Positions 500 through 62,660 of a stretch of 64,000 bases of DNA are shown one piece after another. Within the stretch, counting starts at the first letter, position 1, and each line of letters starts with the position of its first letter. The position numbers were made by a program, and so were the translations under genes. The notes beneath the pieces were generated by a model. The model was not told the DNA's origin. It was given only the letters and a program-made list of their open reading frames with translations, and did not search any database. The DNA is from Zestosphaera sp. (GTDB lineage: Archaea; Thermoproteota; Thermoprotei_A; Sulfolobales; NBVN01). The stretch lies in NCBI GenBank assembly GCA_038843015.1, contig JAWBSH010000004.1, forward strand, positions 62,001 to 126,000, written 5' to 3'.

Positions 500-1495
500 A
501 TGCTGAGACTTCACATGAATGAATCACCATACCCTCCTTCAAAGACTTCACTTGAGTACATCAATAAATACAGTAATCTCCTGAACTTATATCACGTTGA
601 GCAATTATATGAAGAGCTACTCAACGAGTTAAGCAGTTATGCAGGCATTGACGAGAAGTTTATTGAGGTGTTCGCTGGTTCATCACCGATACTAGCCATC
701 ATGCTGACTTACGCCAAGATTACTGACTCAGGACTCATATTAACTCATCCAACATTTCACGTCATGTACAACCTAGTAGATAATTATAGTATCCGACACG
801 CTTACGTAGAGTTAAGCAAGGAAGACTTTACTTTAGACATAAGTAGGCTTATAGAAGTATCTGAGGGGCACGTAGTCTACTTAATAAACCCTAACAACCC
901 TACAAGCAATATTCTCCTAGAAGACCCTGAAGTACTGAAGAAGGTTGCTAAGAGAGCTAAGACGGTCTTCATAGATGAAGCTTACTACGAGTTTTCTGGG
1001 CTGACATTCAAAGACTTAGTCATGGAATATGATAATGTGGTGATCATAAGAACAGTCTCTAAAGCGTTTAGCTTAGCTGGAGCTAGGTTCGGGTACATAA
1101 TCACTAGTGAGAAGATGAAGAAGGTTTTAAATAGCCTCAGAGTAGGATATGAGGTACCCATAACTACTCAAGCCGCAGCGTTAGGGGCGCTTAGAGACCC
1201 TTATTACATGAAAGAAGTAGTTAGTAAGATTATTGAGACTAGAGAGGGGGTCAAGAAAGCACTTATTGATGCAGGCATAAAGGTCGTAGAGAGCAGAACT
1301 AACTTTCTTTTCATTGATTTAGGCAAGCCTTGCAGAAAATATTGGGAGCTTCTTAAGAAGGATGGAATTCTGACCTTGTGTCTAGAAAACATAGAAAGAC
1401 TTAAAGAATTTGGGAGTTGCTTCAGAGTCACTGTAGGCAGACCTGAAGAAATGAACTTATTCATTAAGAAATTGCTGGAGATCCTCAGTAGTTAA
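500..1495 (+). CDS. hisC: HisC-like pyridoxal-phosphate aminotransferase
   Basis: This is a 331-residue fold-type I aminotransferase. The N-terminal MNESPYPP is the histidinol-phosphate aminotransferase start motif. NPNNPT at 130-135, Asp159 in FIDEAYYEF, the Schiff-base lysine Lys188 in TVSKAF and Arg196 in GARFGY are all present. The family transfers an amino group between glutamate and imidazole-acetol phosphate in histidine synthesis. No other his genes are nearby, and the related threonine-phosphate decarboxylase CobD and aromatic aminotransferases share these motifs, so the substrate is not fixed by sequence alone. It follows the divergent phosphate transporter by about 100 bases and ends convergent with the MFS gene. 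Length is slightly shorter than typical HisC (about 350). Confidence 0.8.
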   Translation: MLRLHMNESPYPPSKTSLEYINKYSNLLNLYHVEQLYEELLNELSSYAGIDEKFIEVFAGSSPILAIMLTYAKITDSGLILTHPTFHVMYNLVDNYSIRHAYVELSKEDFTLDISRLIEVSEGHVVYLINPNNPTSNILLEDPEVLKKVAKRAKTVFIDEAYYEFSGLTFKDLVMEYDNVVIIRTVSKAFSLAGARFGYIITSEKMKKVLNSLRVGYEVPITTQAAALGALRDPYYMKEVVSKIIETREGVKKALIDAGIKVVESRTNFLFIDLGKPCRKYWELLKKDGILTLCLENIERLKEFGSCFRVTVGRPEEMNLFIKKLLEILSS

Positions 1496-2836: not shown

Positions 2837-4942
2837 GTGTGTGAGTTGAGGAAATTTGGAGATAAGATATGCGACTATGTAGTAGCTGTTGTCGGACAGC
2901 CCTCTGTCGGCAAGTCAACGTTTTTTACGCAAGTTACTGGCGAGCTAGTTCGCGTGGCTAATTGGCCTGGCACTACAGTAGAGCAAAAAGTCGGGATAGT
3001 TGCTTTTGAGGGTAAGGTTTTGTGCTTAGTTGATTTGCCAGGTATTTACGGCTTATCTCCTACGTCGCTCGAGGAAAAAATAACTAAGAATTTCTTAATT
3101 TCTAGTGATTGGGATGTTATTTTAGTTTTAACAGATTCATTGATTCCTGAGAGATCTATTTATCTACCAATACAGATTGGTGAAATGACTAACAAGTTAG
3201 TGATAGCTTTGACTAAGTGGGACGCGACACATAAGGCAGGTCTACACATAGATACAGAGAAGCTTAGTTCTAGATTAGGCTTCCCAGTAATCCCTATTTC
3301 GTCGATTACTGGTGAAGGAATTAGAGAGGTTCTAAGTACTCTAGTTGGTGTAGCTGAAGGCAGAGTTAAGAGCAGTCCACTCAAAATTGATTACGGCTTA
3401 CTCGATAGCTATGTGAATGAGTTAATGGGACTCATCGATGACCGCGTGATAGGCAAATTACCTAAGAGGTTTGTAGCTCTCAGACTTTTAGAAGGAGATC
3501 AAGATGTAGTTAATATAATTAGGGATAGACCAGACATTATAGAAAAAAGTGAAAAGTTGCGAGAGGAATTCAGGAAAGCTACTGAGAGAACACCTGAAGA
3601 ACTAGCTATCCTAGAGAGATATGAGTACGCGTCAAAGATAGTTAGAGAAACTGTAGTTAGAGTAAAAGTGAGACCGCGTATTACAGCCTTAATCGATAAA
3701 ATTTACTTACATTCGTTGTTGGGTCCTCTGACCTCGGTCTTAACTATATTCGCTACGTTTGCTGCGGCCTTTACGTTGAATACAGGCTTTCCTCTCACGT
3801 ATTTCCTCAGATACTTAGGTTTTGAGGCTGTAGCCAGCATATTAGAGACTTACAGCCTATCAGGATTGCTCGAAAGTACCTTTGTTCTTATAGGTGAAGC
3901 CGCTCGGGCAATGTTAGCAGACCTAAGCAAAGAACTAGCCTCTTTAGTAGCTGACGGCATATTAGGGGGTCTTGGTGCTGTATTGAGTTTCCTGCCTTTA
4001 ATATTACTTGTCTCGATGTTTCTCTCAATACTTGAGGATAGTGGTTTGGGTCCTAGAATGGTTGCTTCCCTACACAATTTCTTCAAGTTTTTTGGATTGT
4101 CTGGAAGAGCCCTATACCCGCTAGTCATAGGGTTTGGCTGTAACGTTCCGGCAGTCTATCAGTCTAGGATCTCCGTAGACGAAGCTGAAAGACGTGAAGT
4201 AATAGCCTCAGCACCATTCATAATATGTCAAGCAAGACTAATTGTTCTGCTTTACTTTACTAGGGTGTTATTCCCTGGTGATGTATTTATTCAAGCATTC
4301 GCGATGGCAGTACTCTATATTCTGTCAATAATTCTATATCTGCTTACAGCTAAGTTAGTAAGGTTTTTAAGTAACGTTAAAGAGTCTCCAGAACTAATTA
4401 TGGAGTTGCCTATGATACATAGGCCGAGCCTTAAAGTTATTTGGTGGAGTTCTTGGAGCAACGCTAAACATTTTCTCTATAAAGCAGGCCTAATAATTTT
4501 CACTCTCTCAATGCTTAGCTGGGTGCTACTATCTTATGGACCTACAGGATATGTTAGCTCGCCGGAAAGTTCTTATGGCGCTATAGCAGGTTCTTATTTA
4601 GGTCGGGTTCTCGAGATATTGTACGGTGTAAAGAACGAGAATTCCTGGATGGTAGGTTACGCATTAGTTTATGGGTTCATAGCTAAAGAAGGCTTAATAG
4701 CTTCTGTTTCTCAGCTAACCGGATTAGCTGAGGAGGAAGCGTTAAAGTCTTTAGGTCTTGACATTGCTCAGGGGGTCTCATTATTGGTGTTCATGATGTT
4801 TTACGTTCCTTGCTTAGCTACAGTAGCTACTATATATAGAGAAAGTAAAAGTTTAAGATTCACTCTAGGCGTGACAGCATATTTAGTTTTAATCGCCTTA
4901 ATTGTCTCGTTGATGACCTACCGGATACTACTTATTGTGTGA
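2837..4942 (+). CDS. feoB: Ferrous iron transporter FeoB
   Basis: This 701-residue protein has an N-terminal G domain followed by a polytopic membrane domain. G1 is GQPSVGKS (20-27), the G2 threonine lies in PGTT (44-47), G3 is DLPG (66-69) and G5 is SSITGEG (155-161). The G4 position reads TKWD (126-129) instead of the usual NKxD. The membrane part holds two gate repeats, with GFGCNVPAV and YVPCLATVAT as the conserved pore motifs. The family imports Fe2+ across the cytoplasmic membrane. No feoA gene is adjacent. The GTG at 2837 is the first start, but the TTG at 2846 has a better placed GGTG site, so the start could be there. The ZIP gene follows 28 bases downstream, suggesting a metal-uptake operon. 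Confidence 0.93.
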   Translation: MCELRKFGDKICDYVVAVVGQPSVGKSTFFTQVTGELVRVANWPGTTVEQKVGIVAFEGKVLCLVDLPGIYGLSPTSLEEKITKNFLISSDWDVILVLTDSLIPERSIYLPIQIGEMTNKLVIALTKWDATHKAGLHIDTEKLSSRLGFPVIPISSITGEGIREVLSTLVGVAEGRVKSSPLKIDYGLLDSYVNELMGLIDDRVIGKLPKRFVALRLLEGDQDVVNIIRDRPDIIEKSEKLREEFRKATERTPEELAILERYEYASKIVRETVVRVKVRPRITALIDKIYLHSLLGPLTSVLTIFATFAAAFTLNTGFPLTYFLRYLGFEAVASILETYSLSGLLESTFVLIGEAARAMLADLSKELASLVADGILGGLGAVLSFLPLILLVSMFLSILEDSGLGPRMVASLHNFFKFFGLSGRALYPLVIGFGCNVPAVYQSRISVDEAERREVIASAPFIICQARLIVLLYFTRVLFPGDVFIQAFAMAVLYILSIILYLLTAKLVRFLSNVKESPELIMELPMIHRPSLKVIWWSSWSNAKHFLYKAGLIIFTLSMLSWVLLSYGPTGYVSSPESSYGAIAGSYLGRVLEILYGVKNENSWMVGYALVYGFIAKEGLIASVSQLTGLAEEEALKSLGLDIAQGVSLLVFMMFYVPCLATVATIYRESKSLRFTLGVTAYLVLIALIVSLMTYRILLIV

Positions 4943-15411: not shown

Positions 15412-15579
15412 CTACTTTCTAACACCTATTTTCTTCTTCTTAGGTCTTAGAGACTTACTCCTGCACCTTCTGCACTTAGTAGCTCCCGGAGGGTTTAGTG
15501 CGCCACATCTCCTGCAGACGAGTTTATTAAGTACTCTCGCCTCAACGATCTTCATTGCTTCAGGGTCTGTTATCGGCAT
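15412..15579 (-). CDS. rpl40e: 50S ribosomal protein L40e
   Basis: This 55-residue basic protein is encoded on the minus strand. It carries the zinc ribbon of L40e: C22-x2-C25 (VCRRCGA) and C36-x2-C39 (KCRRCRS), followed by the lysine-rich tail SLRPKKKK and a short C terminus. The start [16 protein letters not shown] is typical for the archaeal protein. GGTG lies six bases before the ATG at 15579. It is a component of the large ribosomal subunit and, unlike the eukaryotic homologue, is not fused to ubiquitin. It is convergent with the nucleotidyltransferase-like gene. Confidence 0.93.
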
Positions 15580-15687
15580 CTTGACACCTTAATAGATTCT
15601 TTAAACAAGACTTAAAAAGCGTTAACACGACTCTCAGTGAGCGAAGCCTCTAGCGTTCTAATCAGAAGACATGACTGTCTGCGTGTT

Positions 15688-15884
15688 ACTTAGTTTTTGG
15701 TTTTTCGGTTGTTTGGGTTATTTCCGCGGGTTTCAGGAATCGACATATTAAGGTATATAAATAACTGAGTTTTTAGTGACTGGGATCCGGCAACTCCCTG
15801 GAGCCGTAAGCGGGGAGAACGGGGACAAACAGGTGGGATGAACCCGTGTCCAGAAAAACCAAAACAACCAAAATAACTAAAATA
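15688..15884 (+). ncRNA. Candidate structured small RNA A between T-rich and A-rich arms
   Basis: A T/G-rich arm (15688-15723) and a complementary A/C-rich arm (15853-15884) enclose a G+C-rich core at 15782-15852 that stands out from its A+T-rich surroundings. In the core, CTCCCTG (15794-15800) pairs with CGGGGAG (15811-15817) over a 10-base loop GAGCCGTAAG. GGAC (15823-15826) and GTCC (15848-15851) close a second domain with an inner GGG/CCC hairpin. A TATA box sits inside the arms at the right distance for a start near 15782. No protein frame fits. This resembles neither SRP nor RNase P RNA and lacks clean C/D boxes. Boundaries are inferred. Confidence 0.5.
15754..15761 (+). promoter_or_regulatory. 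TATA box of candidate small RNA A
   Basis: TATATAAA lies 25 bases before the point where sequence switches from A+T-rich to G+C-rich (about 15782). This is the expected distance from box A to a transcript start. The whole upstream module, including a T-rich stretch, recurs at 18127-18202. Confidence 0.5.
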
Positions 15885-15916
15885 GCATAGCTAATGGGCA
15901 CGGGCAACCACTAAAA

Positions 15917-15950
15917 CTGACTTCCCCACTCTTTAAAGCGAGGCTTTCAA
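15917..15950 (-). repeat. Dispersed TnpB-type end element (RE2)
   Basis: On the minus strand it reads TTGAAAGCCTCGCTTTAAAG then AGTGGGGAAGTCAG, matching the family consensus over its whole length with a shortened GGAGG run. CTCGCTTT and AAAGAGTG pair in part, giving the hairpin. It lies just downstream of candidate RNA A on the opposite strand. Confidence 0.55.
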
Positions 15951-16004
15951 ACACAGTTTAAGTTTAGTTTAATAATTATGTACGGGATTTCTTTAAGAGG
16001 GTTG

Positions 16005-16148
16005 GGTGGTTGTTTCTTTTTGGTTTTTTCTAGGGTTTGTGAAAATTGTGAATGTGGTGGTTCAGGGTTTCCGAGACTTACGGCAGTTCGTGGGGAAGGG
16101 CTCAGGGATACCTTGATTAATCACCACAGAGAAACAAACAAAAACCTC
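16005..16148 (-). ncRNA. Candidate structured small RNA C with conserved 38-base block
   Basis: T-rich and A-rich arms (16005-16034 and 16130-16148 on the plus strand) flank a core closed by GTGGTG (16054-16059) and CACCAC (16122-16127). Inside, an 11-base helix (16062-16072 with 16106-16116) has ten pairs, G-T wobbles included. Read on the minus strand, 16061-16100 shares a block with 5834-5871 (CGAACT, CCGT, AGTCT, GGAAACCCT). The minus strand is therefore the more likely sense. It lies directly after the NusA-like gene on that strand, so it could be a separate RNA or a structured 3' end of that message. A 77-codon plus-strand frame over it shows no protein character. Confidence 0.45.
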
Positions 16149-16166
16149 AAGATAAGAAGCGATCTG

Positions 16167-16685
16167 TTAGTCGGCTCTTATCCTAACAACGTTGCCTGTT
16201 ATCTGAGTTAAGAGATCCTCTATGATTTCTCTCCTCTTGAATGGAAGGTTCCTTAACTCGAACCTAGGTACTCTAACTACGTACTCTACTGTTCCGTCAG
16301 GCAACCATATAGTATTGACGCTAGTTATCCGAGCGGGAAAAACTAGTTGCTTCACGATTTCTTTCAGGTCTCTCGTGTTAGTTACTATTTTGGTTTTGAC
16401 TTTCAGTCTCTCACTTAATATCCAGCTCAGTTTATTCAGCGATCTAGGGTCTGGCGTGTTGTTCTTAGTGTCTTGCAGTATAACTACTAGAGCTCCTTCA
16501 CCCATTACGCTACGCACATATTCCATGTCTTTCAGAAACTTGAAATCGGTGAGTTCCTCTAAATCGAGTAGCTCTCTCATTACGTCTACCTCATACTCTC
16601 TTACGGAACCTCCTCTAACTATAGACTGACATCTAGGACACAACACCCCGGTCTTCACACACAGCACATCTAGCGGGATCCTCAA
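16167..16685 (-). CDS. NusA-like zinc-finger/KH RNA-binding protein
   Basis: This 172-residue archaeal protein starts MRIPLDVLCVKTGVLCPRCQ, a form of the N-terminal motif (I-P-x-x-x-x-C-x-K-T-G-x-L-C-x-x-C) of archaeal NusA-like proteins, with three cysteines for zinc. The middle is a mixed alpha/beta domain, and the C-terminal half (ARITSVNTIWLPDGTVEYVV ... IEDLLTQITGNVVRI) has KH-like character. Such proteins bind RNA and are thought to act in transcription elongation or ribosome-linked steps; the exact role is not established. It is followed on its own strand by candidate RNA C. Confidence 0.7.
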   Translation of the reverse strand: MRIPLDVLCVKTGVLCPRCQSIVRGGSVREYEVDVMRELLDLEELTDFKFLKDMEYVRSVMGEGALVVILQDTKNNTPDPRSLNKLSWILSERLKVKTKIVTNTRDLKEIVKQLVFPARITSVNTIWLPDGTVEYVVRVPRFELRNLPFKRREIIEDLLTQITGNVVRIRAD

Positions 16686-16764: not shown

Positions 16765-16836
16765 CTGAAAGCCTTGTCTTTTGGAGCGGGGATGTCATAC
16801 TGACCTCCTCCCAGCCCTAAAGTGCGAGGCTTTCAG
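16765..16836. repeat. Tail-to-tail pair of TnpB-type end elements (RE3a/RE3b)
   Basis: A plus-strand copy (16765-16797, CTGAAAGCCTTGTC ... GGGGATGTCA) meets a minus-strand copy (16801-16836, minus strand CTGAAAGCCTCGCA ... GGAGGAGGTCA) with three bases between. Their outer CTGAAAGCC/GGCTTTCAG ends are perfectly complementary, so the whole 72 bases is an imperfect palindrome. It lies between divergent genes for the NusA-like protein and the tRNA thiolase. In an intact element the sequence after the tail would be the guide, so each copy would have the other as its guide. Confidence 0.6.
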
Positions 16837-16954
16837 AAGCGGTAAGGATGCTACTCTATGTTCTAGGCTTAGTGTCCCTGTCTTGCGTAGTTTGAGCGAG
16901 TTGTTGGAGAAGAGCTTAATAACTCGCAACACCACCTGAAGTTGGTACTCTCTA

Positions 16955-17944: not shown

Positions 17945-18306
17945 GAGTTGCGGAATTAGAATCAATATCTGACAAAGCAGATAACATTTCAAAAAGTCTG
18001 GCGGTAAAATTTTGACGCCTAAACCTGTCTTTGCTTAAAGACTTAATGAGAATCACGATAATGTCTGTTGATTAGATTTCTGCAAGTTTTATTTGAGCAT
18101 AGTCTTCGCAGGGAGGATTGTCTGAGGTTATTTTGTTTTTGGTTTTCTAGTTGTTTGGGATTGTTTCTATGGATTCCAAGAATTAATTACCTAGTATATA
18201 AAATGATTAAGTTTAAGTGTTTGGATAGTTCGAAGTCTATGAGCTGATGAGTTGTCGACGAGAGACAAGGCTCTGTAAACCACTGCTAAGATAAGCTCAG
18301 CTTGCT
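17945..18306 (+). other. Intergenic region with promoter module shared with RNA A (candidate RNA B)
   Basis: Bases 18127-18202 repeat, with drift, the T-rich arm and TATA module of 15688-15761 (shared GGTTTT, GTTGTTTGGG and TATATAAA). A transcript would start near 18223. From there GAGC (18242) and GCTC pair around an inner TTGTC/GACAA helix with a GACGAGA loop, so a short structured RNA is possible. No A-rich second arm is present. A TGATGA is visible but no matching CTGA box, so a C/D RNA is not supported. The first 180 bases show nothing recognisable beyond A+T-rich sequence. Confidence 0.35.
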
Positions 18307-19947
18307 TTACTTTCTCAGAGCGTCAAGCACTAAATTTCTTAGATTCAGTGTTTTTTCACTGAATAATTCTTTACTCATGTACTCGACGTTGCTAGGTATT
18401 CTAGGTTTAAACTCCATCTTAGCAAGTATATTTTTCTCTATATCTACCTCAGGAGCAATCTCAATTAATTCTATTCCGTCTTTTCCTAGCCTGAATACGG
18501 CTCTTTCCGTCACGAAAAGAATTTTCTGTCCTTTTTCGACGCCGTAACTTCCATTATATACTACCTTGTAGACTCTTTCAACAAACTTGCTTATGTCGCC
18601 GTCTTTGATTATCTTTAACGCATTTTCTGAGACTTCTATTTTTCTTTCGCCAGCTGTAAATTCTCCGGCGAAGTATAAGTTGGGGGCTCCGAACGCTATG
18701 ACTGGGAATCCGCCGGCACCAGGCATTCTTCCAGGAAGGAAAGCAGGATTTACATTACCTGACTTGTCTACTTGCATGAATCCTAAAGATGCAGCATCTA
18801 TTATTCCGCCCTCATAATTAGTGAACATGTCTGCCATAGGCACTACTGCGAAGTATCCTCTAGATGCTCCGAAGTCTGAGCCTGTTAAAGCTACTCCACC
18901 AAAGGGGCCTGACTCAACTGTTGTGTATATAAACTCGTCAATGCCTTCTTCAGCAATGACTGAGGCTACGTCAGCAGGTATTCCTATACCTAGATTCACT
19001 AATACCGGTCTCCCGAGAGAAGCTACTAGAGAAGCTAATTCTAGAGCTACTCTCCTAGCTATGACTTTCCTAACACCTAGTTGTAAGGCAGAAGACCTCA
19101 GTGATTTCTCGGGTGGTATTATCTCACCAGATATTGTGGGGTCATACAAGATAGTGTCTGTCTGCCCGTGAGACTCTAGCGATTCAGGAGCTACTACTAC
19201 GTAGTCTACTAGTGGTGCAGGTATATGAACGCTTCTAGGACTTATAGAACCAACTCTAGCTACCCTCTTAACTTGAGCTATGGTTAGTCCTTTCTCAGGA
19301 TATGCTTTAACAGATTGAGCTATTGCTAACACGTTAAGTAACGCGCCCTCATGCTCCATAGATATATTACCTGCTTCATCTGCGGTGGTGCCGCGTATTA
19401 GCGCAACATTAGGTTTGGGACACCTATACAGTAGGTATTCTTCGTTATCTATAGCAATCAAGTCTACCCTGCAAGTCTTTCTCTCCTCAGCTAACTTATT
19501 TACTAGACCACCGCCGTATCTAGGGTCAAACATGCTACCTAGACCCACCTTAGTAAGAACTCCTGGTCTACCAGCAGCTACCTCTCTAAACCAATGCGAA
19601 GTTATACCTATAGGCCAGTTATACCCCTCAATAACGTTTTCTTCTACTAGTCTAGCAATGCTAGGGACCCAACCATAAAAAGGTATTAAGACTCCTCTTA
19701 AGAAATCATAGTCTTTATTCTCAATTATTTTCCTCCCAACAAGGTCTAAGCCCTTGCCTGGAGTTCCAGGACATGTCTCCGCAATGATAAATAAGTTTCT
19801 CGGATGACCATAGGTCAAGTACGTCTCATAAAGCTTACTTATTAAATACGCCGGTGTAGCGATCATGTTAAAACCTGACACAGCAATAACCGAGCCGTCT
19901 CGCACACGACGCAAGACTTCCTCAGGTTTAACAATTTTATTAAACAC
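18307..19947 (-). CDS. Acyl-CoA:carboxylate CoA-transferase (YdiF/PCT type)
   Basis: This 546-residue class I CoA transferase has its alpha- and beta-type halves fused, as in YdiF or propionate CoA-transferase. VNLGIGIPADVA (317-328) is the glycine-rich beta-half motif. Glu345 in YTTVESGPFGG is the expected catalytic glutamate that forms the acyl-enzyme. The N-terminal half carries DGSVIAVSGFNM. It moves CoA between acyl-CoA and a free carboxylate such as acetate, with no ATP cost. It is the most downstream gene of a leftward group with the semialdehyde dehydrogenase and aminotransferase, separated by about 96 bases and with A+T-rich sequence between, so it may have its own promoter. Confidence 0.85.
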   Translation of the reverse strand: MFNKIVKPEEVLRRVRDGSVIAVSGFNMIATPAYLISKLYETYLTYGHPRNLFIIAETCPGTPGKGLDLVGRKIIENKDYDFLRGVLIPFYGWVPSIARLVEENVIEGYNWPIGITSHWFREVAAGRPGVLTKVGLGSMFDPRYGGGLVNKLAEERKTCRVDLIAIDNEEYLLYRCPKPNVALIRGTTADEAGNISMEHEGALLNVLAIAQSVKAYPEKGLTIAQVKRVARVGSISPRSVHIPAPLVDYVVVAPESLESHGQTDTILYDPTISGEIIPPEKSLRSSALQLGVRKVIARRVALELASLVASLGRPVLVNLGIGIPADVASVIAEEGIDEFIYTTVESGPFGGVALTGSDFGASRGYFAVVPMADMFTNYEGGIIDAASLGFMQVDKSGNVNPAFLPGRMPGAGGFPVIAFGAPNLYFAGEFTAGERKIEVSENALKIIKDGDISKFVERVYKVVYNGSYGVEKGQKILFVTERAVFRLGKDGIELIEIAPEVDIEKNILAKMEFKPRIPSNVEYMSKELFSEKTLNLRNLVLDALRK

Positions 19948-62311: not shown

Positions 62312-62433
62312 GTAAAGCTATTTGAGGACTTACACCTCTATAGGTTCCTCTCTTCACGCCCGCTTTTATCAAAGTCATTATCGAACGAGGCTCTCTGTAG
62401 CCACGCTTTCTCAGCATAATGGTATTACATATT

Positions 62434-62468
62434 TGAAAGCCTGCCCTTCAGGGCGGGGAGGAGGTCAG
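62434..62468 (+). repeat. Dispersed TnpB-type end element, best-conserved copy (RE10)
   Basis: TGAAAGCCTGCCCTTCAGGG then CGGGGAGGAGGTCAG is the reference copy of the family. GCCCTTCAGGGC is a perfect inner hairpin, extended by CCTGC/CGGGG-type pairs, followed by GGAGGAGGTCAG. It matches the right-end structure of IS200/IS605-type TnpB elements and the 3' end of their guide RNA. No tnpB gene is near. The following 20 bases (62469-62488) hold no recognisable gene. Confidence 0.65.
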
Positions 62469-62660
62469 TTCTTCAGAGCTGTCGGCGAGGAGCAACTCAC
62501 AGAGCTTTGTCCTTGCTAAAGGTTCGTCAGATCATCGACTCCAGAAAATATTTGTTGTTGGTTGTAAAATTTCTGTTCTGAGGGACTAAGTCTTTAGTTC
62601 AGTAATTGATTTTAATTTTTGTAGAGATAATCACATTGGTAGCGGTAAAGGTGTTGTGTA

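Follow-up and report, generated by a model that had tools for sequence, protein, structure and literature searches.

A decayed guide-only mobile element in Zestosphaera and a TnpB lineage whose guide RNA is probably a separate, divergent gene

What kind of genetic unit is the G+C-rich island at 15688-15884 of a 64,000-nucleotide stretch of Zestosphaera sp. DNA, referred to here as the window? A preliminary description read it as an insulated, free-standing small-RNA gene, in which complementary T-rich and A-rich arms enclose a TATA box and a core of two stable helical domains. Several of these parts are present: a TATA-type box, TATATAAA, lies before the core at 15754-15761, the core (15782-15852) has a G+C content of 63% compared to about 42% for the window, and only 2 of 500 mononucleotide-shuffled arm pairs are as complementary as the real ones. 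The two stable helical domains did not hold up, as the core folds with a z-score of -0.32 and 70 of 200 shuffles fold equally well. I hold with good confidence that the island is a decayed guide-only copy from a TnpB lineage whose omegaRNA is most likely a separate divergent gene.

The island turned out to be repeated. A DNA search of its own genome returned 12 matching pieces, most of the copies being longer, and R1, a covariance model of the full RNA core, found 14 places at E<=1, three of them within the window. The second window copy (18117 to ~18290-18310, + strand; 34.7 bits with R1 at 18231-18311) is missing its 3' part and continues into the 3' end of a gene (18307-19947). The third copy is weak (62421-62543, - strand; 17.2 bits), represents the 5' part of the RNA and abuts an ordinary IS605-type end hairpin, an arrangement that would result if one TnpB element had inserted into another. 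Elsewhere in the genome, copy L002 (positions 1-150, at a contig start) and copy L003 have a common left flank and different right flanks, due to either a segmental duplication or recombination between copies.

The genes flanking the island, 15412-15579 and 16167-16685 (both - strand), also lie next to each other in each of the four further genomes from the genus; the left one probably encodes ribosomal protein L40e, judged by eye from its four-cysteine zinc ribbon. The gap between them measures about 530 nt in the window, ~300 nt in G003, ~220 nt in G001, ~49 nt in G004 and 16 nt in G002. Since two sister species have these genes almost contiguous, the window copy is an insertion, and what had been taken for a free-standing gene is a mobile element missing from the same site in those species. 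Another dispersed repeat, apparently unrelated and likewise with T-rich and A-rich ends, lies at about 15986-16162; a 261-base query over it gave nine pieces in the same genome, three of them 150-172 bases long with 90-92% identity.

Aligning the other copies enabled the ends of this guide-only, internally deleted element to be placed at 15676 and 15911 (+ strand, in RNA orientation), which is larger than the unit first delimited. The T-rich end (15676-15735, +) corresponds to the tnpB-3'-side end of the parent element: in locus L026, the same end adjoins the antisense 3' end, encoding the C-terminus, of a tnpB remnant. An insulating role of the arms found no support, given that they are not conserved; the T-rich arm recurs beside the remnant in L026, and the A-rich arm is the loop of a terminal hairpin that has only a few bases in the compact relative L036. 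The putative RNA promoter (15754-15761, +) takes the form GGTATATAA in most aligned copies. GAC at 15673-15675 (+) borders the T-rich end in the same place in most copies and, by analogy with the YGCC of the Sulfolobaceae-type copies described below, might be guessed to be the target motif (TAM) of the window subfamily.

The RNA scaffold (15782-15911, +) lacks ~80 nt after GGGA (15782-15785) when compared with L003-L007 and L015, namely the first hairpin and the 5' half of the central hairpin, and R1 scores it at 25.9 bits while full copies reach 137-155 bits. Its 3' module (15832-15911, +) comprises GGTGGGATGAA, a stem (15843-15851/15896-15904), an A-rich loop (15852-15895) and CAACCAC, and recurs in L030 and L036 as well as in the L154 RNA, which is canonically placed. 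The RNA part of the element terminates in GGGCACGGGCAACCAC. If the copy were active, its guide would be taken from the adjoining flank at 15912-15931 (+; the length of ~20 nt is assumed), extrapolating from TnpB systems as described in the available part of PMC8612924.

The absence of the ~80-nt block relative to longer copies marks the window copy as an internal deletion derivative, and this loss is the likely reason why its core is no more stable than expected by chance. Folding from the core to the element end gave z -1.42, the compact full-length relative L036 was much more stable than chance (z -5.6), and the long copy L005 from the same genome was only mildly below chance (z -1.2). The missing block belongs between positions 102 and 109 of the query, and L002 lacks it too, with an identical junction and different outer flanks, so the deleted form itself either spread or was copied via recombination. 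With its scaffold shortened in this way, the window copy is probably dead. Ordinary IS605-type end hairpins, recognised by what I take to be their motif, CTGACTTCC...GAGGCTTTC, occur in the window at 15917-15950 and 16795-16840. The former sits directly 3' of the RNA end, and L004 has one in the same position; two element copies thus abut IS605-type ends.

Protein-coding relatives connect these short copies to a larger transposon. A full-length copy searched against 214 genomes of the order had matches in 13, and locus L030 (G116) displays the parent layout: the RNA at 534-662 (-), a promoter region, an open reading frame resembling ribbon-helix-helix (RHH) proteins at 713-862, a nuclease gene at 927-1820 and an element end near 1925 (ends placed by eye). 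The order of the full element is one end, an outward gene for the putative guide RNA, a shared promoter region, an RHH- or AbrB-like protein, a TnpB-like RuvC nuclease and the other end. L023 is an intermediate that retains the RNA, the RHH-like frame and two pieces of tnpB. The window-type copies are multicopy and without coding capacity; they share their RNA end with L030, and their T-rich end is the one found beside the tnpB remnants of L026. Lists of open frames showed no Y1 transposase (TnpA) within the L030 element or the stretches covered for other full elements. The host genome contains no intact nuclease of this TnpB clade, a C-terminal remnant of one that adjoins an RNA copy (L085/L087), one intact Y1 transposase, and ordinary TnpB at three places above the cut-off of NCBIfam model TIGR01766.

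A Pfam search did not recognise the clade nuclease. With the NCBIfam models, the L030 product scored 46.4 bits against TIGR01766 (TnpB-related, cut-off 32), L068 was also above this cut-off, and L088 scored 71.9 bits against TIGR01765 (cut-off 47.25). D216, E280 and D347 (L088 numbering) are invariant in all 25 aligned proteins (the L030 product and 24 relatives) and are read here as the putative RuvC triad. Sequence-profile searches of the PDB gave only marginal Cas12/TnpB matches (best E 0.002). A predicted structure of the L088 nuclease (pLDDT 87) retrieved Cas12f first (8j12, E 7e-9), followed by Cas12k, Cas12g and IscB, with unrelated chains among the weaker matches. The nuclease is TnpB/Cas12f-like and a probable RNA-guided DNA cutter.

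By eye, the small gene before tnpB looks RHH-like in L105, L106, L030 and L023 and AbrB-like in L044, L066 and L088, the RHH assignment having weak Pfam matches (E 0.04-0.5); the two types alternate between subgroups as if the regulator had been swapped. A CRISPR array of eight DR25 repeats lies ~0.5 kb from a full element in G212 (L095, 3498-3970). Viral contigs gave 11 pattern matches, with no nuclease relative among them.

The structure of the RNA and its strand were assessed from alignments of the family. Alignment A1 was built without the deleted copies L001/L002, the truncated copies L004 and L009/L014, and the divergent or shortened L016, L017, L027, L033 and L037. Alignment A3 holds 35 R1 matches, including two doubtful rows (L015 on the minus strand and L031 at 345-447). 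In A3, which is itself fitted to R1, 87% of cells are paired and the covariation score is 0.465, compared to 0.06-0.11 for slid controls. RNAalifold on A3 recovered the same central hairpin, and 13 of its 17 pairs showed double changes. At two neighbouring pairs, U-G is the combination in 23 and 31 of the 35 rows, which fits an RNA transcribed from this strand and does not fit the opposite one.

Of 14 Sulfolobaceae-type loci, 11 match Rfam family RF02814 (Sso133) above the gathering score; it is the central hairpin that matches, on the predicted strand. The Sso families of Rfam derive from RNA screens in S. solfataricus; no paper treating Sso133 as a small RNA was found in the literature searched. 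Rfam searches of the window and of copies of its type found only a tRNA at threshold and no Sso133 in the window. HgcC matches at 17-19 bits were dismissed, since by eye they fell on ordinary IS605-type end hairpins. The proposal of a small-RNA gene hence survives in part: a structured RNA on the + strand, as the covarying and U-G pairs of the family and the Sso133 matches of its Sulfolobaceae members argue, with an internal archaeal-type promoter, is retained, while its insulated and free-standing nature is not.

The RNA and the nuclease gene travel together. At E<=1e-20, 58 out of 211 genomes in the order carry tnpB genes of this clade. Among 30 fetched tnpB loci, one of which (L043) is an R1 training sequence, 23 have an R1 match upstream and divergent at E<=10, 16 of them at E<=0.01; R1 found no RNA in that position in the other seven even at E<=10, and three further matches lie outside it. 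A scan of named genomes yielded 80 loci of the clade, an overlapping set that again includes a training locus (L150) and in which many loci lie on short bins. These loci include Metallosphaera yellowstonensis, Zestosphaera, Caldivirga, Vulcanisaeta and Thermocladium, and reach Bathy-, Nezha-, Baldr- and Odinarchaeota, Thermococcus and Methanosarcinales bins. At E<=1, R1 matched 39 of the 80, with the RNA upstream and on the opposite strand in 36 of these, and had no match in 41. The RNA is present in 26 of the 211 genomes; clade tnpB was found in 18 of these 26 and in 40 of the remaining 185 (Fisher p 2e-6, kinship among genomes being ignored). Eight genomes, including the host and G018, have the RNA and no tnpB of the clade.

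A single locus, L154, has the standard layout, with tnpB at 2920-4092 and the RNA directly behind it on the same strand (R1 match 4119-4254, 30.2 bits, E 1.4e-5 in 448 kb). The end module of this RNA consists of AGGTGGGATGAA, a hairpin with changed letters and CGACCACCT, and the RNA folds with z -5.3. Its protein clusters with those of L148 and L030 (support 0.985, midpoint rooting), within the clade that carries the divergent RNA, which argues that the position of the RNA has moved within the clade.

The ten Sulfolobaceae-type copies were informative about where the element stops. Homology ends at the RNA end, which reads GGGGTCGGAC in eight copies and a variant of it in L092 and L093; in the same eight the other element end lies next to GGCR, which copies of the L092/L093 type lack. 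L090 and L107 were excluded from this analysis because no RNA end is visible in their upstream part. G197 carries an empty site for L091, with a flank that is 100% identical and fixes the RNA-end boundary within three bases. The other L091 flank is rearranged and absent from that site, so the empty site settles one side only. Five Sulfolobaceae-type copies were tried for restoration of interrupted genes: a cut of the form A|..|GGC rejoins open frames in L096 (HEPN-like) and L098 (amidase-like), both by eye, and the other three show no such frame and look intergenic. In the subfamily of the window copy, no convincing frame restoration was seen among 18 copies, and no empty site was found. The flanks of 10 full copies showed no consistent repeat that would represent a target-site duplication.

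In RNA direction, YGCC precedes the element, and the sequence into which the RNA would read is the one found after YGCC at the empty site. This arrangement is that of TAM and guide in TnpB, as presented in the accessible portion of PMC8612924. At the DNA level, the end of the predicted scaffold is the end of the transposon, from which it follows that the RNA would read into flanking DNA in the way TnpB omegaRNAs do.

A mechanism can be proposed on this basis. In many loci there is a TATA-centred palindrome between the RNA and the small gene (for example CTACAGAAGTGCTTATAAGCTTTTCTGTAG in L044), ~400 nt ahead of the tnpB reference point; it is not clear in others such as L043, L056 and L068. This palindrome may be a shared promoter firing in both directions and, at the same time, the operator for the small DNA-binding protein, which would probably control it. 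The guide RNA would be transcribed from its own promoter towards the nearer transposon end, the scaffold stopping at the terminus and the adjoining flank serving as the guide. Made apart from the nuclease, the RNA would load onto it and direct it to the empty donor site left after excision, whose short motif and flank would form the target; cutting there would favour restoration of the element. Short derivatives could have retained the ends, the promoter and the RNA, lost the genes for the proteins and spread through mobilisation in trans. A tentative extension, which I consider possible and on balance doubtful, is that the guide RNA is an independently mobile unit, so that the flank of each insertion is a new guide and one TnpB loads the set in trans; for such guide-only elements, G018 gave 12 matching places and G000 gave 14.

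Other explanations of the same structure were weighed against this reading. The conserved hairpin could be a transposon-end DNA hairpin recognised by a Y1 transposase in trans, with no function as RNA. A terminal hairpin at the element end is indeed what IS200/IS605 ends look like, and the host has one intact Y1 transposase that might act on it. However, two adjacent conserved U-G pairs suit an RNA and not a DNA hairpin, conservation extends far past an end and takes in the TATA box, and the Sulfolobaceae members are an Rfam small RNA, which together make this explanation quite unlikely. The idea of an insulated, free-standing host small-RNA gene fares worse still and appears extremely improbable: while it accounts for the TATA box, the G+C-rich core and the complementary arms, it is at odds with a multicopy unit that is absent from the site in sister species, with arms that are not conserved and with a window core that is no more stable than shuffles.

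It is also conceivable that the RNA regulates the element, as an antisense RNA or riboregulator of tnpB, and has no part in guiding. Its divergent orientation next to the shared promoter region would fit, and antisense RNAs of transposons are known in Sulfolobus, according to the available text of PMC12817955. Against this, the RNA has no overlap with the tnpB frame, its end coincides with the element end, and in L154 it lies behind tnpB on the same strand, where an antisense role would make no sense. Regulation is consequently rated as quite unlikely, and a guide RNA encoded apart from its nuclease is the reading carried forward.

How does such a system compare with those already described? 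The closest are the IS200/IS605 TnpB elements with their reRNA or omegaRNA (ISDra2, PMC8612924; SisTnpB1, PMC10640517), which, in the portions of these papers available, combine a RuvC nuclease in a small transposon, a structured RNA scaffold that ends at the element end, and, beside the opposite end, a motif that in the empty site stands before the would-be guide target. All three features recur here, the motif being seen in the Sulfolobaceae-type copies. In contrast, the RNA of those elements is the same-strand tail of tnpB, and here it is a separate, divergent upstream gene with its own promoter region; no zinc finger was seen by eye in the nuclease either, and a gene for a small DNA-binding protein stands in place of tnpA. 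In known TnpB systems, the guide RNA is cut from the tail of the nuclease's own mRNA, as stated in the accessible part of PMC10278001. With its likely guide RNA upstream and divergent instead of behind tnpB, the lineage is best classed as a variant of the TnpB-omegaRNA (OMEGA) systems and not as a plain member. No account of a divergent guide-gene layout was found in the literature searched, and one may be in print elsewhere.

Prokaryotic MITEs resemble the window-type copies in being short, multicopy and gene-less and in sharing their ends with a larger element. They differ in that the copies described here keep a promoter and a structured RNA and not the ends alone, and in that the related full elements lack a consistent target-site duplication. 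The Rfam model of Sso133 (RF02814) is 73 nt long, a length exceeded by the present RNA, which continues to the transposon end and occurs in many other archaea; the comparison offers a candidate function for this orphan Sulfolobus small RNA. Cas12f and other type V effectors have the nearest predicted fold and likewise keep guide and effector in separate genes, though the nuclease here is a compact protein of ~360 aa, the element holds no CRISPR array and the guide RNA would be the transposon end. The clade is a divergent family of compact nucleases from thermophiles, for which a scaffold and a target motif are predicted. If the proposed reading is true, guide and nuclease are two genes with a shared, probably regulated promoter, similar to the split between CRISPR effector and guide, and would form a natural intermediate for asking how Cas12-type enzymes came to rely on guides that are produced elsewhere. 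Were the guide in addition mobile by itself, the element would be a transposon-borne analogue of that split.
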